A program made the translations under genes and the position numbers. Shown piece by piece: positions 47,179 to 55,911 of a DNA stretch of 64,000 nucleotides. Source of the DNA: Deltaproteobacteria bacterium (GTDB taxonomy: Bacteria; SZUA-79; Acidulodesulfobacterales; Acidulodesulfobacteraceae); NCBI GenBank assembly GCA_023489335.1, contig JAMDCP010000002.1, positions 1 to 64,000 of the forward strand. The letters run 5' to 3'. Below the pieces are notes generated by a model. That model was not told the DNA's origin, did not search any database, and saw nothing but the letters and a program-made list of their open reading frames with translations. Each line of letters starts with the position of its first letter. Positions within the stretch are counted from its first letter, which is position 1.

Positions 47179-48473
47179 TGAATAGAAAAAACACAATAAT
47201 TTCTTCTCAACCCCCTCCCGGAACAAGGGATTTTTTACCTCTTGAAGCCAAATTTATTAATATGGCCGCCAATACTTTATTAGACGAATTCTCGAAGTGG
47301 GGGTATAAGAGGGTTGTAACGCCCAGCATCGATTATCTCGATATATTTCTTTTAAGTTCAAAGGCCAATGAATTATTTAAAGTAGCCGATATAGGCTCGG
47401 GAGAGATGCTTTCTTTTAGAAGCGATTTCACGCCCCAAATCGGCAGGCTTAGCTCGGCATTAAGAAATTCCAGTATTTTGCCGTATAAATTTTCATACTT
47501 TGGACCTGTTTTGCGAAACTTTGACCCTATTTTGGGAAAGCCCCGCGAAATATGGCAGGTAGGGGCCGAATTAATAGGCCCGGAAAGTCCCGAAAGCGAT
47601 GCCGAACTCATTATTATGGGTATCGAATCCCTAAAAAAACTTAATATTAAGGATTTTAGCGTCGATATAGGAAATGTAGAATTTTTTAGAGGCATTGTTT
47701 CGGATATAGATGAGCCTGCCAGGAACAAAATCGAAGAATTTACCTTAAGGAAAGACTCCTCTGGTTTAAACGCTTTTTTGAAAGATTTATCTTTACCGGA
47801 GGGTAAAAAGGATATTATTAAAGAATTGCCTTTTATGTTCGGCGAAAAAGCCGTTATAGAAAGGGCATGGAAAATGACGGATAACGAAAGGGCGATAAAT
47901 GCTCTTGAAACTATGGAGCGGGTTATTTCGTACATAAAATCATATAAACTTGAAAAATATATCACAATCGATTTAGGAGAAATTAGAGGTTTAAATTATT
48001 ATACGGGAACTATTTTCGAGTGTTTCATACCGCATGTCGGTTATGAAATTTTTGGGGGAGGCAGATATAATAACTTAATTGGAATGTTTGGAGAAAATTG
48101 CGCAGGAGCAGGTTTTGCCGTTAATTTAGATATATTGAGCAAATATGTTGATTTTCCTGATTTTAGGAACGACGGCTTTTTAGTTTTTAATAAAACGGAT
48201 AATAAAAAATTGGAAGTCGAAATAATTATGTTTTTGAGGAAAAAAGGTTTGAAAGCCGAATCAGATTTTATGGATTATGATTATTCGGATGCCTTAAAAT
48301 ATGCGGAAGAACAGGGTATTAAACATATCGTATATATACAAAAAACGGAAGGCAAAACGCAGTTCGGGGGGGCGAAGCCTGAAGAAAAATATTACATTTT
48401 ATTAAAAAACATTTATAATAATAGCGAAAAAGGGTTTGGAACCGTCGCAGGTTTTAAAAAATATCTTGAATGA
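47178..48473 (+). CDS. hisZ: ATP phosphoribosyltransferase regulatory subunit HisZ
   Basis: HisZ is a catalytically dead HisRS paralogue that activates the short HisG, the first enzyme of histidine synthesis. The 431-residue protein starts at a GTG overlapping the serA stop by one base. It has PPPGTRDFLPLEAK (motif 1 area), LSFRSDFTPQIGRL and FSYFGPVLRNFDP (motif 2 with altered residues), and GGGRYNNLIGMFG. A C-terminal domain retains ALKYAEEQGIKHIVYI. Placement beside purA is a known arrangement. HisS is less likely because of the altered histidine-A motif and the purA neighbour. Confidence 0.87.
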   Translation: MNRKNTIISSQPPPGTRDFLPLEAKFINMAANTLLDEFSKWGYKRVVTPSIDYLDIFLLSSKANELFKVADIGSGEMLSFRSDFTPQIGRLSSALRNSSILPYKFSYFGPVLRNFDPILGKPREIWQVGAELIGPESPESDAELIIMGIESLKKLNIKDFSVDIGNVEFFRGIVSDIDEPARNKIEEFTLRKDSSGLNAFLKDLSLPEGKKDIIKELPFMFGEKAVIERAWKMTDNERAINALETMERVISYIKSYKLEKYITIDLGEIRGLNYYTGTIFECFIPHVGYEIFGGGRYNNLIGMFGENCAGAGFAVNLDILSKYVDFPDFRNDGFLVFNKTDNKKLEVEIIMFLRKKGLKAESDFMDYDYSDALKYAEEQGIKHIVYIQKTEGKTQFGGAKPEEKYYILLKNIYNNSEKGFGTVAGFKKYLE

Positions 48474-48531
48474 GAGATTATTAGCAAGGTTAAAGGTTAA
48501 TTGAATTTAATTTAATTTAAATAAAGGATTT

Positions 48532-49824
48532 ATGGGAAAGAAAAATATCATTGTCGTAGGTCTTCAGTGGGGAGACGAAGGAAAAGGAAAAATAGTGGAT
48601 TTATTGGCGAAAGATGCCGATATTATAGCCCGTTACCAGGGTGGGAATAATGCGGGGCATACCGTTGTGAACGGGAATTTGAGCCTTGTATTCAGGCTCG
48701 TTCCATCGGGGATACTTAACGAAGAGAAAATCTGTATGCTGGGCAACGGCGTAGTTGTGGATCCATCGGTGTTGTTTGAAGAATTAGACGCTTTAAAAAA
48801 AATAGGCATAGATATCAAAGATAGGTTTTTTGTTTCTAATAAATGCCACATAATTATGCCTTATCATAAAAGGCTTGACATTGCACGAGAAAGACTAAGG
48901 GGCGCCGGTATGATAGGGACAACAGGAAGAGGGATAGGCCCGGCTTACGAAGATAAGGTTGCGAGGCTTGGCATTAGAGCGGTAGATTTACTTGACAGGG
49001 AGTTATTATACGATAAGATTGTTTTAAGTTTAAAAGAAAAAAACTATTTGTTTAAAAATGTTTTGGGCGAAAATGTATTTAGCCCTGACGATTTAATCGA
49101 TGAATATTTTACATTTGGAACAAAATTAAAAGATTTTTTAATTGATTCCTCCAGCTTTGTAAACGAAAAACTGAAAAGGGGATTCAATATAATGCTTGAA
49201 GGCGCGCAGGGGACATTTCTTGATGTTGACCACGGGACATATCCTTATGTTACATCGTCTAATACGGTTGCCGGCGGCGCTCTGGCAGGCATTGGGCTGG
49301 GGCCGACCATAATCGATGAGGTAATAGGCATAACTAAGGCATACACTACGAGGGTGGGGGAAGGTTATTTTCCCACCGAACTCAAGGAAGGAACAGGCAG
49401 TATAATTCGCGATAAGGGTGAAGAATTTGGCTCTGTTACGGGAAGGCCAAGAAGATGCGGATGGTTTGATGCTAATCTTATCAGGGAGGCTAAAAATTTA
49501 AACGGCATAACCGGAATGGCCGTGACTAAGCTCGATGTTTTATCCGGTATCGCAAAAATAAGCATTTGTACGGGCTATATGTTTAAAGGCGGCATAACCG
49601 ACCATCTTCCCCCTTCTATGGCCGATTATGATAAAATAACCCCTATATATGAGGAAGTTTCGGGATGGAGCGGAGAAATATCGGGTATAAAATCGTTCAA
49701 AGATCTTCCCGTAAATGCGCAAAAATATCTTTTAAGAATAGAAGAGTTGACGGGTCTGCCGTTAAATATCGTATCCATTGGAAAAGAAAGAACGCAGACC
49801 ATAACTTTAAAAGGCATATTTTAG
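48532..49824 (+). CDS. purA: Adenylosuccinate synthetase
   Basis: PurA converts IMP, aspartate and GTP to adenylosuccinate. The 430-residue protein has the GTP loop VVGLQWGDEGKGKIVD, RYQGGNNAGHTVV, TGRGIGPAYEDKVAR, EGAQGTFLDVDHGTYPYVTSS (in parts), TRVGEGYFPTEL and the TGRPRRCGWFD segment. AAAGGA lies before the ATG. A long imperfect hairpin follows the stop. Confidence 0.97.
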   Translation: MGKKNIIVVGLQWGDEGKGKIVDLLAKDADIIARYQGGNNAGHTVVNGNLSLVFRLVPSGILNEEKICMLGNGVVVDPSVLFEELDALKKIGIDIKDRFFVSNKCHIIMPYHKRLDIARERLRGAGMIGTTGRGIGPAYEDKVARLGIRAVDLLDRELLYDKIVLSLKEKNYLFKNVLGENVFSPDDLIDEYFTFGTKLKDFLIDSSSFVNEKLKRGFNIMLEGAQGTFLDVDHGTYPYVTSSNTVAGGALAGIGLGPTIIDEVIGITKAYTTRVGEGYFPTELKEGTGSIIRDKGEEFGSVTGRPRRCGWFDANLIREAKNLNGITGMAVTKLDVLSGIAKISICTGYMFKGGITDHLPPSMADYDKITPIYEEVSGWSGEISGIKSFKDLPVNAQKYLLRIEELTGLPLNIVSIGKERTQTITLKGIF

Positions 49825-49828
49825 GCCC

Positions 49829-49902
49829 AAATTGCCGCTCGAAATTTTTATTCTGAATTCCTAAAATATTGCGATACTTTTAATAATTCCGAACGGCAAT
49901 TT
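49829..49902 (+). terminator. Long imperfect hairpin after purA
   Basis: AAATTGCCG at 49829-49837 pairs perfectly with CGGCAATTT at 49894-49902, and the inner sequences continue to pair imperfectly (TCG/CGA, then AAT runs), for roughly 20 of 25 positions. It begins five bases past the purA stop. The 3' arm ends in TTTT, so termination is possible, though the T-run is short. An alternative is a folded element separating purA from the methyltransferase. Confidence 0.45.
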
Positions 49903-49919
49903 TAAATTAGGACGGTTGC

Positions 49920-50759
49920 TTGCTTTGCGAAGAATACATTAAAATAAAAAATTCGCTAAATTATTCACCACATGTCAGGTTTTTGGCTTTTCAGTCCTAT
50001 TTGACCTCGCACTCCCTCCAGCGTCAGTTAGACGGCATTTCCTATAACTTTGATGATAAAATTGTGGCCGATATCGGAACAGGTTTGGGAATATTGCCAT
50101 GTTTGCTTAAAAATAGAAAAGCGGAAAAGATTATCGGCATAGATTCCGATATGGAGCTTTTAAGTGCGGGCAGTTCTTTAATGAAAGATAACAATGCATG
50201 TTTTATATGCGCAGACGGGTTTAATATGCCGTTCAAAGATGCATCTTTCGATGCAGTTTTTATCAGGTATGTTTTTCAACATGTAAATTTATCGAATAAC
50301 TTTCTCACTGAAGTAAAAAGAGTGATGAAAGATGACGGCATATTGATTATAATAGATATAGACGATGAACTAAATTTATTTTATCCCGATTTACCCAAAA
50401 GGTCCGAAAATTTATTTAAAATTTACTCGGAATATCAAAAGCTAAAAGGGGGAGATAGATTTATTTCAAAAAAATTACCGTCTTTTTTATCGGCCAATGG
50501 ATTTAGGGATATAAAAGTAAAACCTTATACCACAACTTTTTTTAGTAAAAAGGATAATGATTTTAATTTTTCGGGGTTGAAAGACGCTTTTTTATTAATT
50601 CAAAACGAGTTAGAACTTGTTAAAAATGACCTTTTCAGAGAAAAGCTTATAGGTATGGCGGAATTTCACAAAGGCTTAAATGACTATTTTAATTTTTTAA
50701 ATTCTAAGGATGATTTATTTGTTTCAAAAACGGAGTTTGTAATCGCCGGTAAAAAATGA
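49920..50759 (+). CDS. Class I SAM-dependent methyltransferase
   Basis: The 279-residue protein has the SAM-binding Rossmann signature IVADIGTGLGILPCLL (motif I) near residue 50, IIGIDSDMELL (acidic loop), CADGFNMPFKDASFDAVFI (motif II area) and VKRVMKDDGILIIID. The pattern is that of Methyltransf_11/25 small-molecule or lipid enzymes; substrate unknown. Start is a TTG with only a weak GGACGG ahead. Its stop overlaps the ABC permease ATG by four bases, so the two are coupled and probably serve one process. Confidence 0.85.
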   Translation: MLCEEYIKIKNSLNYSPHVRFLAFQSYLTSHSLQRQLDGISYNFDDKIVADIGTGLGILPCLLKNRKAEKIIGIDSDMELLSAGSSLMKDNNACFICADGFNMPFKDASFDAVFIRYVFQHVNLSNNFLTEVKRVMKDDGILIIIDIDDELNLFYPDLPKRSENLFKIYSEYQKLKGGDRFISKKLPSFLSANGFRDIKVKPYTTTFFSKKDNDFNFSGLKDAFLLIQNELELVKNDLFREKLIGMAEFHKGLNDYFNFLNSKDDLFVSKTEFVIAGKK

Positions 50760-51529
50760 AAACCGAATTAAGCGCATTTATCGCAATAAATAACAGGGAA
50801 ATTTTAAAATTTATAAGGCAAAGGTCAAGGCTTATCACGGACCTTTCAAGGCCGGTTATCTGGCTTTTATTCGTTGGTTTCGGCATTTCGACCATGGTTA
50901 AGATTAAAAGCGGTTCTTATATGCAGTTTATCTTTCCTGGGATACTTGTGATGACCGTTCTTTTTAGGTCTATTTTTTCTTCGATATCGATAATATGGGA
51001 TAGGGAGTTCGGGGTTCTAAAAGAGATTCTCGTTTCCCCCATATCGAGAAAAACATTCGTATCCGCAAAGATAACATCGGGCGGCATCATTAGCACCATT
51101 CAGGCAATAATAATGCTGGCTTTCGCCCCTGCGTTAGGAATTAAAATTTCTTTAAGCATTTTTATTCTTACCGTTTTTTCCCTTTTTTTAATTTCGTGTT
51201 CCATTACCGCATTCGGAATAGTTATAGCCTCAAGAATGACATCCTTTGAGGGTTTTAATTCGATTATAAACCTTATAGTCCAGCCAATGTTTTTTGTAAG
51301 CGGCGCACTTTATCCGATAAAAAGATTTCCATTTTTTTTAAAAATACTGGCTTATGTTAATCCCATAACATATTCCGTCGATATATTGAAGTATATCTTT
51401 TTTTATAACAAAAAAGTAAGTTTCTTTATCCCCGAGACCCCCATTATATTAGACTTTATTTTTATTTTATCATTTCTAATTATAATGGTTTTTCTTTCTA
51501 ATTATTTTTTTGAAAAAGAGGATAATTAA
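50756..51529 (+). CDS. ABC-2 type transporter permease
   Basis: The 257-residue integral membrane protein has six predicted helices and the ABC-2/DrrB-NodJ pattern: FRSIFSSISIIWDREFGVLKEILVSPISR (given here as the known EREFGTL..LLVTP-like cytoplasmic loop) and QPMFFVSGALYPIKRFP, NPITYSVDILKY. Such permeases export polysaccharides, lipids or drugs together with an ATPase. No ATP-binding subunit lies on either side, so it must borrow one encoded elsewhere. It overlaps the methyltransferase stop by four bases and the next frame follows immediately. Confidence 0.88.
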   Translation: MKTELSAFIAINNREILKFIRQRSRLITDLSRPVIWLLFVGFGISTMVKIKSGSYMQFIFPGILVMTVLFRSIFSSISIIWDREFGVLKEILVSPISRKTFVSAKITSGGIISTIQAIIMLAFAPALGIKISLSIFILTVFSLFLISCSITAFGIVIASRMTSFEGFNSIINLIVQPMFFVSGALYPIKRFPFFLKILAYVNPITYSVDILKYIFFYNKKVSFFIPETPIILDFIFILSFLIIMVFLSNYFFEKEDN

Positions 51530-51545
51530 AAAAACTAAAACAAAA

Positions 51546-53228
51546 ATGAAGATTAATTTAAAGATATTTAAAAAATCTATCAGAAAAATAAAGGTTAAAA
51601 AGCCTTTAGAGAAAAAAGGTTTTGTCATCTTCCAGATCGACGGGCTTTCCCATGAAGCTATAAAAAAAGCATTTTCTCTTAATTTAATGCCCCATTTAAA
51701 AAAAATCATTGCGGGGGACGGATACAGTTTTGACAAGTATTTTATAGGGGTTCCAAGCGATACCCCCTTTTTTCAGGCAGGACTTCTATACGGAGATAAC
51801 GATAATGTACCCGGTTTTAGATGGATAGAAAGAGAAACGGGAGACGAGATAATCTTTAAAAAACCTGAAAGCGCTGGTTATATCGAGGAGGCGCTTGCAA
51901 AAAAAAATCGCGGGCTTCTCACCGGAGGTTCAAGCTATGTCAATCTTTTTGCGGGCGGAGCATCCAGGTCGACTTTCACGCTTTCAACCTTTTCTATTCG
52001 TTATTTATTTAAAAGAAAGGTTCGAAATTTTGATATTTTCATTGTGTTTATGTTTCATATTTTTACTTTTTTAAAGACATTTTTTTATGTTTTTTTTGAG
52101 TTTTTAATCGAAATATGGGAAAGGGTCGTCGATGTCGTAAAAAAAAGGGATATTCGTCCCGAAGGCCTTTTTCCGTTTGCAAGGGTTATGTCTAATGTTA
52201 TATTTAAAGAAATAGAAACATTCGGCGCCATAATGGATATATCAAGGGGGGTTCCGTCTATTTATCTCGATTATATAGGCTATGACGAAATTTCTCATCA
52301 TAGAGGGCCGTATTCGCTTAGCGCTTTAAGTACATTAAAGGCTATAGACAGAAAAATATATCATATTTATAAAGAAATAAAGAAGGCCGAAAGAAAATAC
52401 GATTTTTTTATTATTTCCGACCACGGACACACACCCTCCATACCATTTTTTCATTTAAATCATAAAAAAAAGCTTGAGAATATAATCGCAGATTACATTA
52501 AAAATGATAATTTCGCTATTTATGAGTTCGACACGGGATACAATGCCGTTATAAAAAGATTGATTATATATATAAACGATTTTTTTAAAAAAGGGAAATG
52601 CAATAAAATTTTAAATAATTTTAAAGGGAAAATAGAGGCAAACAGTATGCCCTCCGGCAATTTCAATAAAAATATAAATTGGGAAAGGGATAAAATAATT
52701 TATATTATGAATTCCGGGCCAATGGCCAATATTTATTTTTCAGGGAAATCATCAAAGATGTCCGCCTCCGAAGTCGAAAAATTATTCCCGGGCATGGTTC
52801 TTATGCTTGCAAAAACCAAAGGCGTAGGGTTTATTATGGGTCAAGATGCCCATGGCGAAGCGGTTATTTTTGACAAAAACTCTCATAGGTTTCATCGTTT
52901 TTCAGACTTTTGTGAAAACGGCGCCGGCGATTGTTTAAGCCTGAAGCATATTATAGACGATTATGACAGTAAGGAAGAAAAGGATGTGGCGCTTTCATCC
53001 ATACAAAAATTTTGTAAGTTTAACAATGCGGGAGATTTAATACTATTTGGGGAATATGACGGCCGCCGCATAATAAATTTCGAAAACCAGCTGGGCGCTC
53101 ACGGCGGCATAGGCGGAAAACAGAATATGCCGTTTGCCGTGTGGCATAGCAGCACGCCGTTTGCCTTCGGGTCCGTTAATAATTCTTGTAAAATTTATGA
53201 ATTTTTGTATAATAATTATGTAGTTTGA
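51546..53228 (+). CDS. Alkaline-phosphatase-superfamily hydrolase (phosphodiesterase-like), membrane-associated
   Basis: This protein of about 560 residues has metal sites of the type I phosphodiesterase/alkaline phosphatase fold: FQIDGLSHEA (Asp), PSDTPFFQAGLL (nucleophile Thr), YIGYDEISHHRG (Asp/His), IISDHGHTPS (Asp/His) and a late GAHGGIGG (His). A strongly hydrophobic Phe-rich segment near residues 160-190 (FIVFMFHIFTFLKTFFYVFF) suggests membrane contact. I prefer ATG 51546; a TTG at 51510 inside the permease gene is also open. Neither has a good ribosome binding site. Substrate may be a lipid or nucleotide-sugar headgroup; that is inference. Confidence 0.8.
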   Translation: MKINLKIFKKSIRKIKVKKPLEKKGFVIFQIDGLSHEAIKKAFSLNLMPHLKKIIAGDGYSFDKYFIGVPSDTPFFQAGLLYGDNDNVPGFRWIERETGDEIIFKKPESAGYIEEALAKKNRGLLTGGSSYVNLFAGGASRSTFTLSTFSIRYLFKRKVRNFDIFIVFMFHIFTFLKTFFYVFFEFLIEIWERVVDVVKKRDIRPEGLFPFARVMSNVIFKEIETFGAIMDISRGVPSIYLDYIGYDEISHHRGPYSLSALSTLKAIDRKIYHIYKEIKKAERKYDFFIISDHGHTPSIPFFHLNHKKKLENIIADYIKNDNFAIYEFDTGYNAVIKRLIIYINDFFKKGKCNKILNNFKGKIEANSMPSGNFNKNINWERDKIIYIMNSGPMANIYFSGKSSKMSASEVEKLFPGMVLMLAKTKGVGFIMGQDAHGEAVIFDKNSHRFHRFSDFCENGAGDCLSLKHIIDDYDSKEEKDVALSSIQKFCKFNNAGDLILFGEYDGRRIINFENQLGAHGGIGGKQNMPFAVWHSSTPFAFGSVNNSCKIYEFLYNNYVV

Positions 53229-53275
53229 TTTACATTCGAAAAATCAAAATTATATAATATTTAATTGCACGCCTG

Positions 53276-54361
53276 ATGTCAGAATTAAGACAGGACCCAA
53301 CAACAAGGGAATGGGTTATTATTGCTACGGAAAGAAGGAGGAGGCCTCACGAATTCGACGCCTTTCCCCCGTCTAAAAAAGAAATTAGCGCAAATCTTCC
53401 CGAATATTCCGAGGATTGCCCATTTTGTTCGGGAAACGAATATCTTTCTCCAAATGAGGTTAAATCATACAGGACGCCGGGGACAAATCCTAACTCAAAA
53501 GGCTGGTGGGTTCGGGTTATTCCGAATAAATTTGCGGCCCTTTCTCTTAGTCCCGAAGTCAGCCCCTTGCCACGCGGGGATGCAAGAGTTTTTAATACTG
53601 ATTTTACAGGGTATTTTTTCCCCAAAGCCACGGAGATTTTCCGAACTAAACCAGGGATCGGCGCTCATGAGGTGGTTATAGATACCCCAAAGCACAATGA
53701 AATAATACCCTTTTTTTCCGATAAGCAGGTTCAAGAGCTATTTTTGATGTACAGAGACAGATACCTGAGTTTAAGCCGGGATGCAAGGTTTAGATATATT
53801 ATAATATTTAAAAATAACGGGGTTAATGCGGGAACGTCCATAGTCCATTCCCATTCACAGATAATTGCGACCCCTATTATTCCGCTTACATTAAGAAATA
53901 ATATTTCTCAAGCCAGGTTTTATTATGACGAAATAGGCAGATGCATTTTTTGCGATATGATACAGGGAGAGATTGTGGACGGCAGGCGAATTATCTTGCA
54001 AACCGATGATTTTATAGTTTTTCACCCGTTTGCTTCTACCAGTCCGTTTGAAACATGGATAATGCCGCTGATGCATGAGCCCTGTTTTGCCTCTATGACG
54101 ATTGATAAGACTAAGGCTTTAGGGAGTATCGTAAAAAGAGTTCTTAAAGGAATGCGTGATGCGCTAAACGACCCCGATTATAATTTCGTTTTCAACAATC
54201 CGCCTATTGCGGATGAAAAAGAGGATTATTACCACTGGAGTTTAAGGATTATTCCCCGCCTTACCATGAAGGCAGGTTTTGAAATTGGAACAGGAATGTC
54301 CATCAACACTGCGATACCCGAAGAAACTGCCGAATTTATGAGGGGATTTTTAACGGAGTAA
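53276..54361 (+). CDS. galT: GalT-family nucleotidyltransferase (galactose-1-phosphate uridylyltransferase or ADP-glucose phosphorylase)
   Basis: The 361-residue HIT-superfamily enzyme starts MSELRQDPTTREWVIIATER, with the zinc-site CPFC near residue 43 and the catalytic SIVHSHSQIIATP, plus a second-half CIFCDMI and YHWSLRIIPRL. The HSHSQ form of the active site, rather than HPHPQ/HPHGQ, resembles ADP-glucose phosphorylase-like members. galE at 29637 would allow a Leloir pathway; glycogen-related phosphorolysis is the alternative. A HAD phosphatase follows seven bases on. Confidence 0.85.
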   Translation: MSELRQDPTTREWVIIATERRRRPHEFDAFPPSKKEISANLPEYSEDCPFCSGNEYLSPNEVKSYRTPGTNPNSKGWWVRVIPNKFAALSLSPEVSPLPRGDARVFNTDFTGYFFPKATEIFRTKPGIGAHEVVIDTPKHNEIIPFFSDKQVQELFLMYRDRYLSLSRDARFRYIIIFKNNGVNAGTSIVHSHSQIIATPIIPLTLRNNISQARFYYDEIGRCIFCDMIQGEIVDGRRIILQTDDFIVFHPFASTSPFETWIMPLMHEPCFASMTIDKTKALGSIVKRVLKGMRDALNDPDYNFVFNNPPIADEKEDYYHWSLRIIPRLTMKAGFEIGTGMSINTAIPEETAEFMRGFLTE

Positions 54362-54367
54362 AACTAT

Positions 54368-55027
54368 ATGATTGAAATTTTAGAGAAATTCGATTCGATA
54401 ATTTTTGATCTCGATGGAACATTAATCGATTCTTTTGAAGCTATTAACGATGCCTTCGATGAAGTTTTTTCCAGATTTCAGGGGAGAACCATAACCTTTA
54501 AAGAGTCCAACTCTTATGTCGGTGTTCCGCTCGAAGGCCTTTTGGGCGAGCTTTTTGGAAAAGAAAATCAGGATGAGGCGATCGAGATTTTCAGAAACAA
54601 ATATAAAGAAGTTTGTTTTGAAAAAACTTCGCTGATAGGCGGGGTAAAAGAACTTTTAGTTTATTTTAAGAAAAAGGGAAAATCTTTAAATGTAGCTACA
54701 AACAAAACCGGTTCGATTTCAAGGAAATTACTGGAGCATTTAGAAATAGGTAATTTATTTGATTATGTTTTTGGCGTGTATGACGGGCTTTCAGGGAAAC
54801 CCTCCCCGGAAATGATTCAAAAAATAGCTGAAAAAACCAATATTTCTCTATCCTCGACAATATTGGTAGGAGATTCCCCCATAGACATAATGACTGCTAA
54901 GAATGCAGGTATCCGTATTTTTAGCGTTGCGTCGGGAAACCATTCCTATGAAGAACTTCAATCGTTTAACCCCGATTTCATATCAATGTCTATCTCCGGA
55001 TTAGTGCCAAACGGTATTAGTAAATGA
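54368..55027 (+). CDS. HAD-family phosphatase (phosphoglycolate phosphatase-like)
   Basis: The 219-residue protein has the four HAD motifs: IIFDLDGTLIDS (nucleophile Asp), NVATNKTG (motif II Thr), GKPSPEMI (Lys) and VGDSPIDIMTAKNAG (acidic). A small alpha-helical cap sits between motifs I and II, as in Gph/PgmB phosphatases. It could hydrolyse phosphoglycolate or a sugar phosphate; next to the GalT-like gene the latter is attractive. It overlaps mqnA by four bases. Confidence 0.88.
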   Translation: MIEILEKFDSIIFDLDGTLIDSFEAINDAFDEVFSRFQGRTITFKESNSYVGVPLEGLLGELFGKENQDEAIEIFRNKYKEVCFEKTSLIGGVKELLVYFKKKGKSLNVATNKTGSISRKLLEHLEIGNLFDYVFGVYDGLSGKPSPEMIQKIAEKTNISLSSTILVGDSPIDIMTAKNAGIRIFSVASGNHSYEELQSFNPDFISMSISGLVPNGISK

Positions 55028-55911
55028 TATACATCGGTGAAATAAACTATCTTAATGTTTATCCTATTTATTATTTTTTAAAAAAGGAAATAAAAACCCA
55101 TCCGGAATTAAATTTCTTAGAGTTTGTTTATGGGACGCCCGCTTTTTTAAATAATGGCCTAAAATTAGGAGATATCGATATAAGCCCATCCTCCTCCTCT
55201 TATTATATTTTAAATTATAAATCGTCCGTCCTGTTTCCAGATCTTTCGATAAGCTCTCAAAAAACAGTCAAAAGTATTTATTTATTTTCCCCAAAGCCCA
55301 TTGAAGATTTTAATGAAGACGAAGCTATATATATAACTCCGGAAACATTAACCTCTTTAAACTTGTTAAAGGTTTTATTGATTGAAATTTATAAATTAGA
55401 TTTGAATAATCTTAACTTTATCACCCTGCCGGCAAGCAATAATCTTGAATTTAAAACTGAATTTAACGGCGGTAAAATGAATGGCAAAAATTTTTTGCAT
55501 ATCGGCAATAATGCTTTAAAATATAGAAAATTTATCCCTGAAGGTTATTTTGCGTATGACCTTGCCGATTTGTGGTATAAATTTACAGGTTTTCCATTTG
55601 TATTTGCGTTATTTATATTAAGAAAAGACGCTTACGATAAAAAGAAAATCGAATTTGAAATTCTTTATAAGTATCTTATAAAATCTAAAGAAAATGCTAC
55701 CCGCGGTTTTAAAGAGGCTGCTTTATCTATATTGAAACAGAGTGAATATAAATTTATATCGTATGAGGAACTTATAAATTACTGGACAGACTGTTTAAGC
55801 TTTGATTTTGGGGAAAGAGAAATTGCAGGATTTAATCTTTATTGTGAATTATTGTATAAAAATAGGCTTATAGATTCTTTTCCGGCATTAAATTTTGTAA
55901 ATTTTGCTTAG
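55024..55911 (+). CDS. mqnA: Chorismate dehydratase MqnA (futalosine menaquinone pathway)
   Basis: MqnA dehydrates chorismate to 3-enolpyruvoylbenzoate, the first step of the futalosine route. The 295-residue periplasmic-binding-protein-like fold starts IYIGEINYLNVYPIYYF, with GTPAFLNNGLKLGDIDISPSSS (the family's P..LN..L..G.(I/L)D...(I/V)SS region), and FAYDLADLWYKFTGFPFVFALF, typical of MqnA. Lineages using it have menaquinone without the classical men genes. Its 3' end overlaps the convergent kinase gene by 44 bases. Confidence 0.88.
   Translation: MIYIGEINYLNVYPIYYFLKKEIKTHPELNFLEFVYGTPAFLNNGLKLGDIDISPSSSSYYILNYKSSVLFPDLSISSQKTVKSIYLFSPKPIEDFNEDEAIYITPETLTSLNLLKVLLIEIYKLDLNNLNFITLPASNNLEFKTEFNGGKMNGKNFLHIGNNALKYRKFIPEGYFAYDLADLWYKFTGFPFVFALFILRKDAYDKKKIEFEILYKYLIKSKENATRGFKEAALSILKQSEYKFISYEELINYWTDCLSFDFGEREIAGFNLYCELLYKNRLIDSFPALNFVNFA

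Follow-up and report, generated by a model that had tools for sequence, protein, structure and literature searches.

How might an export permease work when no gene for an ATP-binding subunit lies beside it, and what do the genes that do lie beside it have to do with its cargo? This question is raised by three consecutive genes on the plus strand of a 64,000-nucleotide stretch of DNA (hereafter the window), which encode a methyltransferase, an ABC-2 permease and a phosphodiesterase-type hydrolase. The window comprises positions 1-64000 of contig C3 in a 1.80 Mb assembly of 21 contigs (G000), and belongs to the uncultured, acid-mine Ca. Acidulodesulfobacterales/SZUA-79 lineage. The relatives that carry names are MAGs of SZUA-79 and Ca. 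Acididesulfobacter, which we place with the group described as Ca. Acidulodesulfobacterales (PMC6776010). An earlier interpretation made from the letters alone (the sequence-only reading) had seen in this trio a cassette that modifies, moves and trims an envelope molecule. All three open reading frames (ORFs) were confirmed, as was the 4-base ATGA overlap between the end of the methyltransferase gene and the start of the permease gene, and the three families that had been proposed were recovered as Methyltransf_11, ABC2_membrane and Phosphodiest matches (Table 1). A literature search found no paper on a methyltransferase-permease-hydrolase trio. Two other candidate identities were rejected. 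For a mobile or viral cassette, relatives of the hydrolase were absent from viral_contigs and PHROGs, and its plasmid matches were limited to two from Streptomyces at 23-29% identity; for a defence system, PADLOC gave no match for the permease or the hydrolase, and the match of the methyltransferase to mads_2 (6.2e-14, 49.7 bits) was read as a generic methyltransferase-domain match.

Table 1. Features of the trio and of the candidate ATP-binding subunit (window positions, or contig positions where a contig is named).
Feature	Position	Strand	Basis
Class I SAM-dependent methyltransferase, 279 aa, TTG start	49920..50759	+	Methyltransf_11, E 1.6e-18
DrrB-type ABC-2 permease, 257 aa, type V/ABCG-like fold	50756..51529	+	ABC2_membrane, E 1.3e-36
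NPP-fold (alkaline-phosphatase superfamily) phosphodiesterase, 560 aa	51546..53228	+	Phosphodiest PF01663, E 7.2e-10
Hydrophobic helical hairpin insertion (hydrolase residues 161-233), putative membrane anchor	52026..52244	+	Helices in model, hydropathy
Solo DrrA-type ATPase	C3:239862-240713		Top model TIGR01188 drrA

The permease has the marks of one half of a pump. An AlphaFold2 model (pLDDT 76.5, pTM 0.79) matches chains of ABCG25, ABCH-9C, ABCG5/8, ABCG1, ABCG2 and NosY at VIA Z scores of 20-22 (for the 20 best rows, 231-255 residues aligned at rmsd 3.1-4.4), and the protein as modelled has the fold of type V (ABCG-like) exporters and a complete ABC-2 fold. This class moves sterols, lipids and hydrophobic drugs, and the sole profile matches in a PDB sequence search were ABCH-9C entries, some of them solved with ceramide. 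The top NCBIfam model is TIGR01247 drrB, whose curated cut-off of 223.05 lies above the score of 204.5 bits obtained here; the two distant ATPase-linked permeases that were tested (L235, L236) likewise score just under that cut-off. Locally, the description of a permease without an ATP-binding subunit holds, in that neither the window nor any of the regions read from 21 lineage relatives has an ATP-binding gene adjoining the permease, but genome-wide it fails, because a solo DrrA-type ATPase exists. The assembly contains two PF01061 permeases, of which the other has its own adjoining ATPase, and a PF12698 search returned the same two along with a NosY-like gene. Among 14 full-length ABC ATPase matches in G000, the solo DrrA-type protein is, from the neighbourhoods read, the only one of ABC-2 class without an adjoining permease. 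Its gene lies ~190 kb from the window permease, next to genes for CbiX, a radical SAM protein and a class II aldolase and close to ftsZ, and its score of 299.5 bits against TIGR01188 drrA falls below the curated 312.45, although this is its top NCBIfam model. By our reading, the LptB-like ATPase of the assembly also lies apart from its permeases, as is usual for LptB, and two Dpp/Opp-type ATPases (L104 and L107, on C1) lie apart from Dpp/Opp-type permeases on C2, so that dispersed ABC genes are not unique to the DrrA type in this genome.

The case for pairing these two distant genes comes from genomes in which their relatives are linked. We searched 291 genomes, 30 from the lineage and 261 others, taking the best permease and the best ATPase place in each outside genome and counting the two as linked when they fell within 2 kb on one strand, with an ATPase threshold of E<=1e-54. 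Outside the lineage, the ATPase was linked in all 14 genomes with a permease at E<=1e-45 and in 20 of the 21 at E<=1e-40. At E<=1e-20 the count was 30 of 45; ten had no ATPase at the threshold and five had it elsewhere (35 of 45 thus holding one). Because the best outside homologues of both proteins sit side by side, a split DrrAB-type exporter is the most likely account of the window permease. The solo protein is also the best match among the 14 ATPases of G000 to the DrrA that adjoins a permease homologue in G025 (237 bits, 41% identity), and in alignment it keeps Walker A, the signature, Walker B, the H-loop and the C-terminal PTLxDVF...GKEIR motif. It is without ~50-55 residues that four aligned linked homologues have; the G236 protein is short too. 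Neighbours of the distant linked DrrAB pairs offered no substrate clue, with no recurring neighbour in 11 regions (the permease ORF was unidentified in L242, L243 and L244). One such pair, in L244 (G123), lies beside pqqB, pqqC, pqqD and pqqE-like genes and reads as PQQ-linked.

Within the lineage, the solo arrangement recurs in the 14 relatives' regions that were read around the ATPase (L181-L194), 13 of which hold an aldolase homologue and none a permease homologue. Permease and ATPase are each present in 26 of the 30 lineage genomes, the former not found in G001, G018, G020 and G043 and the latter not found in G005, G020, G022 and G024. We read these absences as assembly gaps, because purA is missing as well from the four permease-less genomes and the aldolase neighbour from the four ATPase-less ones; both searches ran without a positive-control genome, homologues of the two queries being found in relatives by other searches. 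A conserved ATPase gene, proposed earlier as something to look for, exists in 26 of 30 lineage genomes and is a good candidate for the missing subunit. On these sequence relationships we consider it probable that the solo ATPase pairs with the window permease, although a different ATPase, such as the one in the ABC-2 pair on C8, could serve it instead. More generally, comparing solo genes with pairs that are linked in distant genomes offers a way to resolve a permease that seems to have no ATPase.

Whether the other two genes of the trio belong with this exporter is a separate matter, and here the evidence is divided. Permease and hydrolase are adjacent in all 21 relatives' regions read, separated by 1-24 nt in 19 of them (the exceptions being G023, 151 nt, and G007, 104 nt). 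Two of the 21, G006 and G007, lack the methyltransferase that the other 19 have, and in these two purA stands immediately 5' of the permease. The distance from methyltransferase to permease varies from a 4-base overlap in two relatives (the window's genus) through gaps of 4 nt in five and 16-22 nt in five to 129-242 nt in seven. For 11 of the 19 relatives carrying the methyltransferase, the alignment begins at its TTG start (residue 1), and its identity to the window protein is 44-88%, compared with 60-92% for the hydrolase and 75-99% for the permease. The protein matches PDB entry 3mgg at 3e-16 across residues 49-255. The stable local unit is thus the permease with the hydrolase; the methyltransferase is a loose neighbour, and the variable, fast-diverging and dispensable member of the trio. 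The gap between purA and the methyltransferase (window 49825-49919) measures 95 nt, and 9-30 nt in two genus relatives.

Such adjacency need not reflect a common task. The flanking genes, namely serA, HisZ/HisS-like, purA, galT, HAD and menaquinone-biosynthesis (mqnA-like) genes, are conserved in the lineage together with their order, and the block that includes the trio runs from serA to a histidine kinase; since the trio sits within a conserved purA-galT block, its synteny is weak evidence of coupling, and the permease-hydrolase adjacency may be simple inheritance of that block. Nor is the tight spacing of the trio unusual here, because, of 57 pairs of neighbouring plus-strand genes in the window, 24 have <=24 nt between them. 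A promoter scan of 48400-55100 gave 22 matches and its shuffles 22.3, a terminator scan 5 matches and its shuffles 6.9, and with counts equal to those of shuffles the scans did not resolve the limits of an operon. It is accordingly quite conceivable, if short of an even chance, that the three genes, the permease as part of a split DrrAB exporter, have merely been inherited as neighbours in a dense purA-galT housekeeping transcription unit, with no shared substrate; the drift and loss of the methyltransferase fit this explanation, as does the separate occurrence of hydrolase and permease beyond the lineage (below). It accounts less well for the persistence of the short permease-hydrolase gap where gaps on the methyltransferase side vary up to 242 nt, and for the two relatives in which galT does not stand 3' of the hydrolase. 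In the latter (G009 and G011; L041 and L044) galT is missing from this position and the HAD gene follows directly.

The hydrolase itself could be defined with some precision. Its ORF opens at TTG 51510, and the stretch upstream of ATG 51546 carries TAA stops in two same-genus relatives, whose homologues align from the ATG at residue 1. The start is therefore most likely ATG 51546, which leaves 16 nt between the permease stop and the hydrolase and corrects the placement at or just past that stop in the sequence-only reading. The predicted structure (pLDDT 80.7, pTM 0.84) matches ENPP5, ENPP4 and Xac NPP at VIA Z ~22 and shares the alkaline-phosphatase superfamily fold (for ENPP5, Z 22.4 over 324 residues at rmsd 3.0); the first Foldseek matches were phosphonoacetate hydrolase and ENPP6. 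We take the roles of a Thr nucleophile and six Asp/His metal ligands to be as in Xac NPP. So assigned, the putative nucleophile T73 and the putative ligands D32, D247, H251, D292 and H293 are conserved in all 30 aligned homologues, and the putative ligand H519 in 28, with a gap in the other two. With this Thr and Asp/His set present, the protein is a putative metal-dependent NPP-type phosphodiesterase.

The hydrophobic, Phe-rich insertion that had been noticed in this protein is real. Its best 19-residue hydropathy is 1.97, at residue 164; the model places helices at 161-169, 172-199 and 209-233; and a hydropathy of at least 1.6 over 19 residues is reached at this position by 25 of the 30 homologues in the alignment, which marks the insertion, as judged from the alignment, as a general feature of the family. 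Putative catalytic residues flank the hairpin on both sides and must share one membrane face. The N-terminus is basic, with no recognisable hydrophobic signal-like stretch or export signal, and we infer from hydropathy and charge that the enzyme acts at the cytoplasmic face. Trimming after export, the last step of the proposed cassette and one that requires the outer face, is for this reason doubtful.

Homologues outside the lineage bear on the same point. A scan of genome contigs for the hydrolase gave 40 loci, 22 in the lineage and 18 others at 27-35% identity, the latter in Chloroflexi, Rubrobacter, Thermobaculum, Acidimicrobiia, Planctomycetota and an unclassed Proteobacteria MAG. In the 16 of these 18 in which the hydrolase ORF, or part of it, was located, no permease homologue lies within five ORFs of it on either side (gene calling missed the ORF in L221 and L232, and L227, L228 and L233 end at a contig edge that leaves downstream sequence uncovered). 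In one locus (L217) the second ORF upstream of the hydrolase weakly matches a methyltransferase domain. Hydrolase and permease both occur in G035, ~70 kb apart. The trio is thus confined to one lineage, whereas the hydrolase points to a widespread, uncharacterised family of hairpin-bearing NPP-fold phosphodiesterases that Chloroflexi, Actinobacteria and Planctomycetes share with this acidophile lineage. Two Acidimicrobiia MAGs encode a fusion of the hydrolase with a PF03372 endonuclease/exonuclease/phosphatase domain at its C-terminus (L230:4741-7077, L231:9001-11310), possibly a hint at phosphoester-lipid chemistry. In one Rubrobacter MAG the gene directly before the hydrolase ORF, and overlapping it, encodes a DUF4126 membrane protein (L223:8258-8866).

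These results leave little room for the cassette as originally conceived, in which the methyltransferase modifies an envelope glycan or lipid headgroup, the permease exports it with a borrowed ATPase and the hydrolase then trims it. It is true that all three genes are adjacent in 19 of 21 relatives, and that the hydrolase fold resembles not only nucleotide NPPs but also those that act on lipid headgroups (ENPP6, ENPP7, autotaxin); nevertheless, the loss of the methyltransferase in two genomes, the basic, signal-less N-terminus of the hydrolase and the want of any glycan-export or glycosyltransferase gene in the trio's flanks make this sequence of events very doubtful. Conservation beyond a single genome, on which the sequence-only reading had made the cassette depend, is found, but it stops at the lineage, outside which hydrolases occur without the permease and permeases have an ATPase beside them instead. 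Least credible is a permease-like protein that works with no ATPase at all, for instance as a channel or a scaffold for the hydrolase, which would suit the want of an adjoining ATPase gene in the window and 21 relatives but sits poorly with the high conservation of the permease, its complete ABC-2 fold and the pairing of relatives of the solo ATPase with relatives of the permease.

We therefore favour, with moderate confidence, a split DrrAB-type exporter accompanied by a cytoplasmic-face NPP phosphodiesterase and an auxiliary methyltransferase, our confidence in the whole being set at this level because its hydrolase part is hedged. The permease would supply the membrane-spanning portion of an exporter of the DrrAB type (type V, ABCG-like), whose ATPase gene would have parted from it in an ancestor of the lineage and now stands solo near cbiX and ftsZ. 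The assembled pump would hold two copies each of permease and ATPase and be powered by ATP hydrolysis; by analogy with the class, what it carries outward would be a lipid or a small molecule of hydrophobic or amphipathic character. The hydrolase, presumably metal-dependent and NPP-type, would be held by its hairpin on the cytoplasmic membrane face, where it might cleave a phosphodiester or pyrophosphate in the exporter substrate, a precursor or a nearby lipid. The methyltransferase, missing in two genomes, would be an auxiliary, fast-evolving tailoring enzyme. A functional link between hydrolase and permease is put forward only tentatively. The more specific idea of a lineage-specific four-part system, in which the membrane NPP processes the cargo of the split DrrAB-type exporter at the cytoplasmic face and the methyltransferase is optional, we regard as unlikely, if not to be dismissed.

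How, then, does this locus compare with systems that are understood? Its closest counterparts are the DrrAB/DrrABC drug and lipid exporters, with which it shares the top models TIGR01188 and TIGR01247 for ATPase and permease, the type V/ABCG-like permease fold, intact ATPase motifs and the C-terminal PTLxDVF motif. It differs from them in the ~190 kb between its two genes, in scores below both curated cut-offs, and in an ATPase without most of the C-terminal insert. Deletion of module G232-P305 of the mycobacterial protein is described as not abolishing the function of M. tuberculosis DrrABC (PMC11539658), and the residues missing from the solo ATPase appear to correspond to that deletion. The hydrolase resembles NPP-type phosphodiesterases (Xac NPP, ENPP4-7, phosphonoacetate hydrolase) in fold (Z ~22) and in its putative metal and nucleophile residues, and departs from them in identity (~12-16%), in its extra hydrophobic helical hairpin and in having no signal-like N-terminus that we could see. 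LptB with LptFG is an ABC exporter whose ATPase gene is unlinked from its permease genes, and to this extent it offers a parallel for an ATPase gene away from its permease gene; it belongs, however, to another transporter class, and the distant relatives of the window permease are usually ATPase-linked. The locus probably represents a small departure from an established type of pump, with its ATPase gene far off in the genome.
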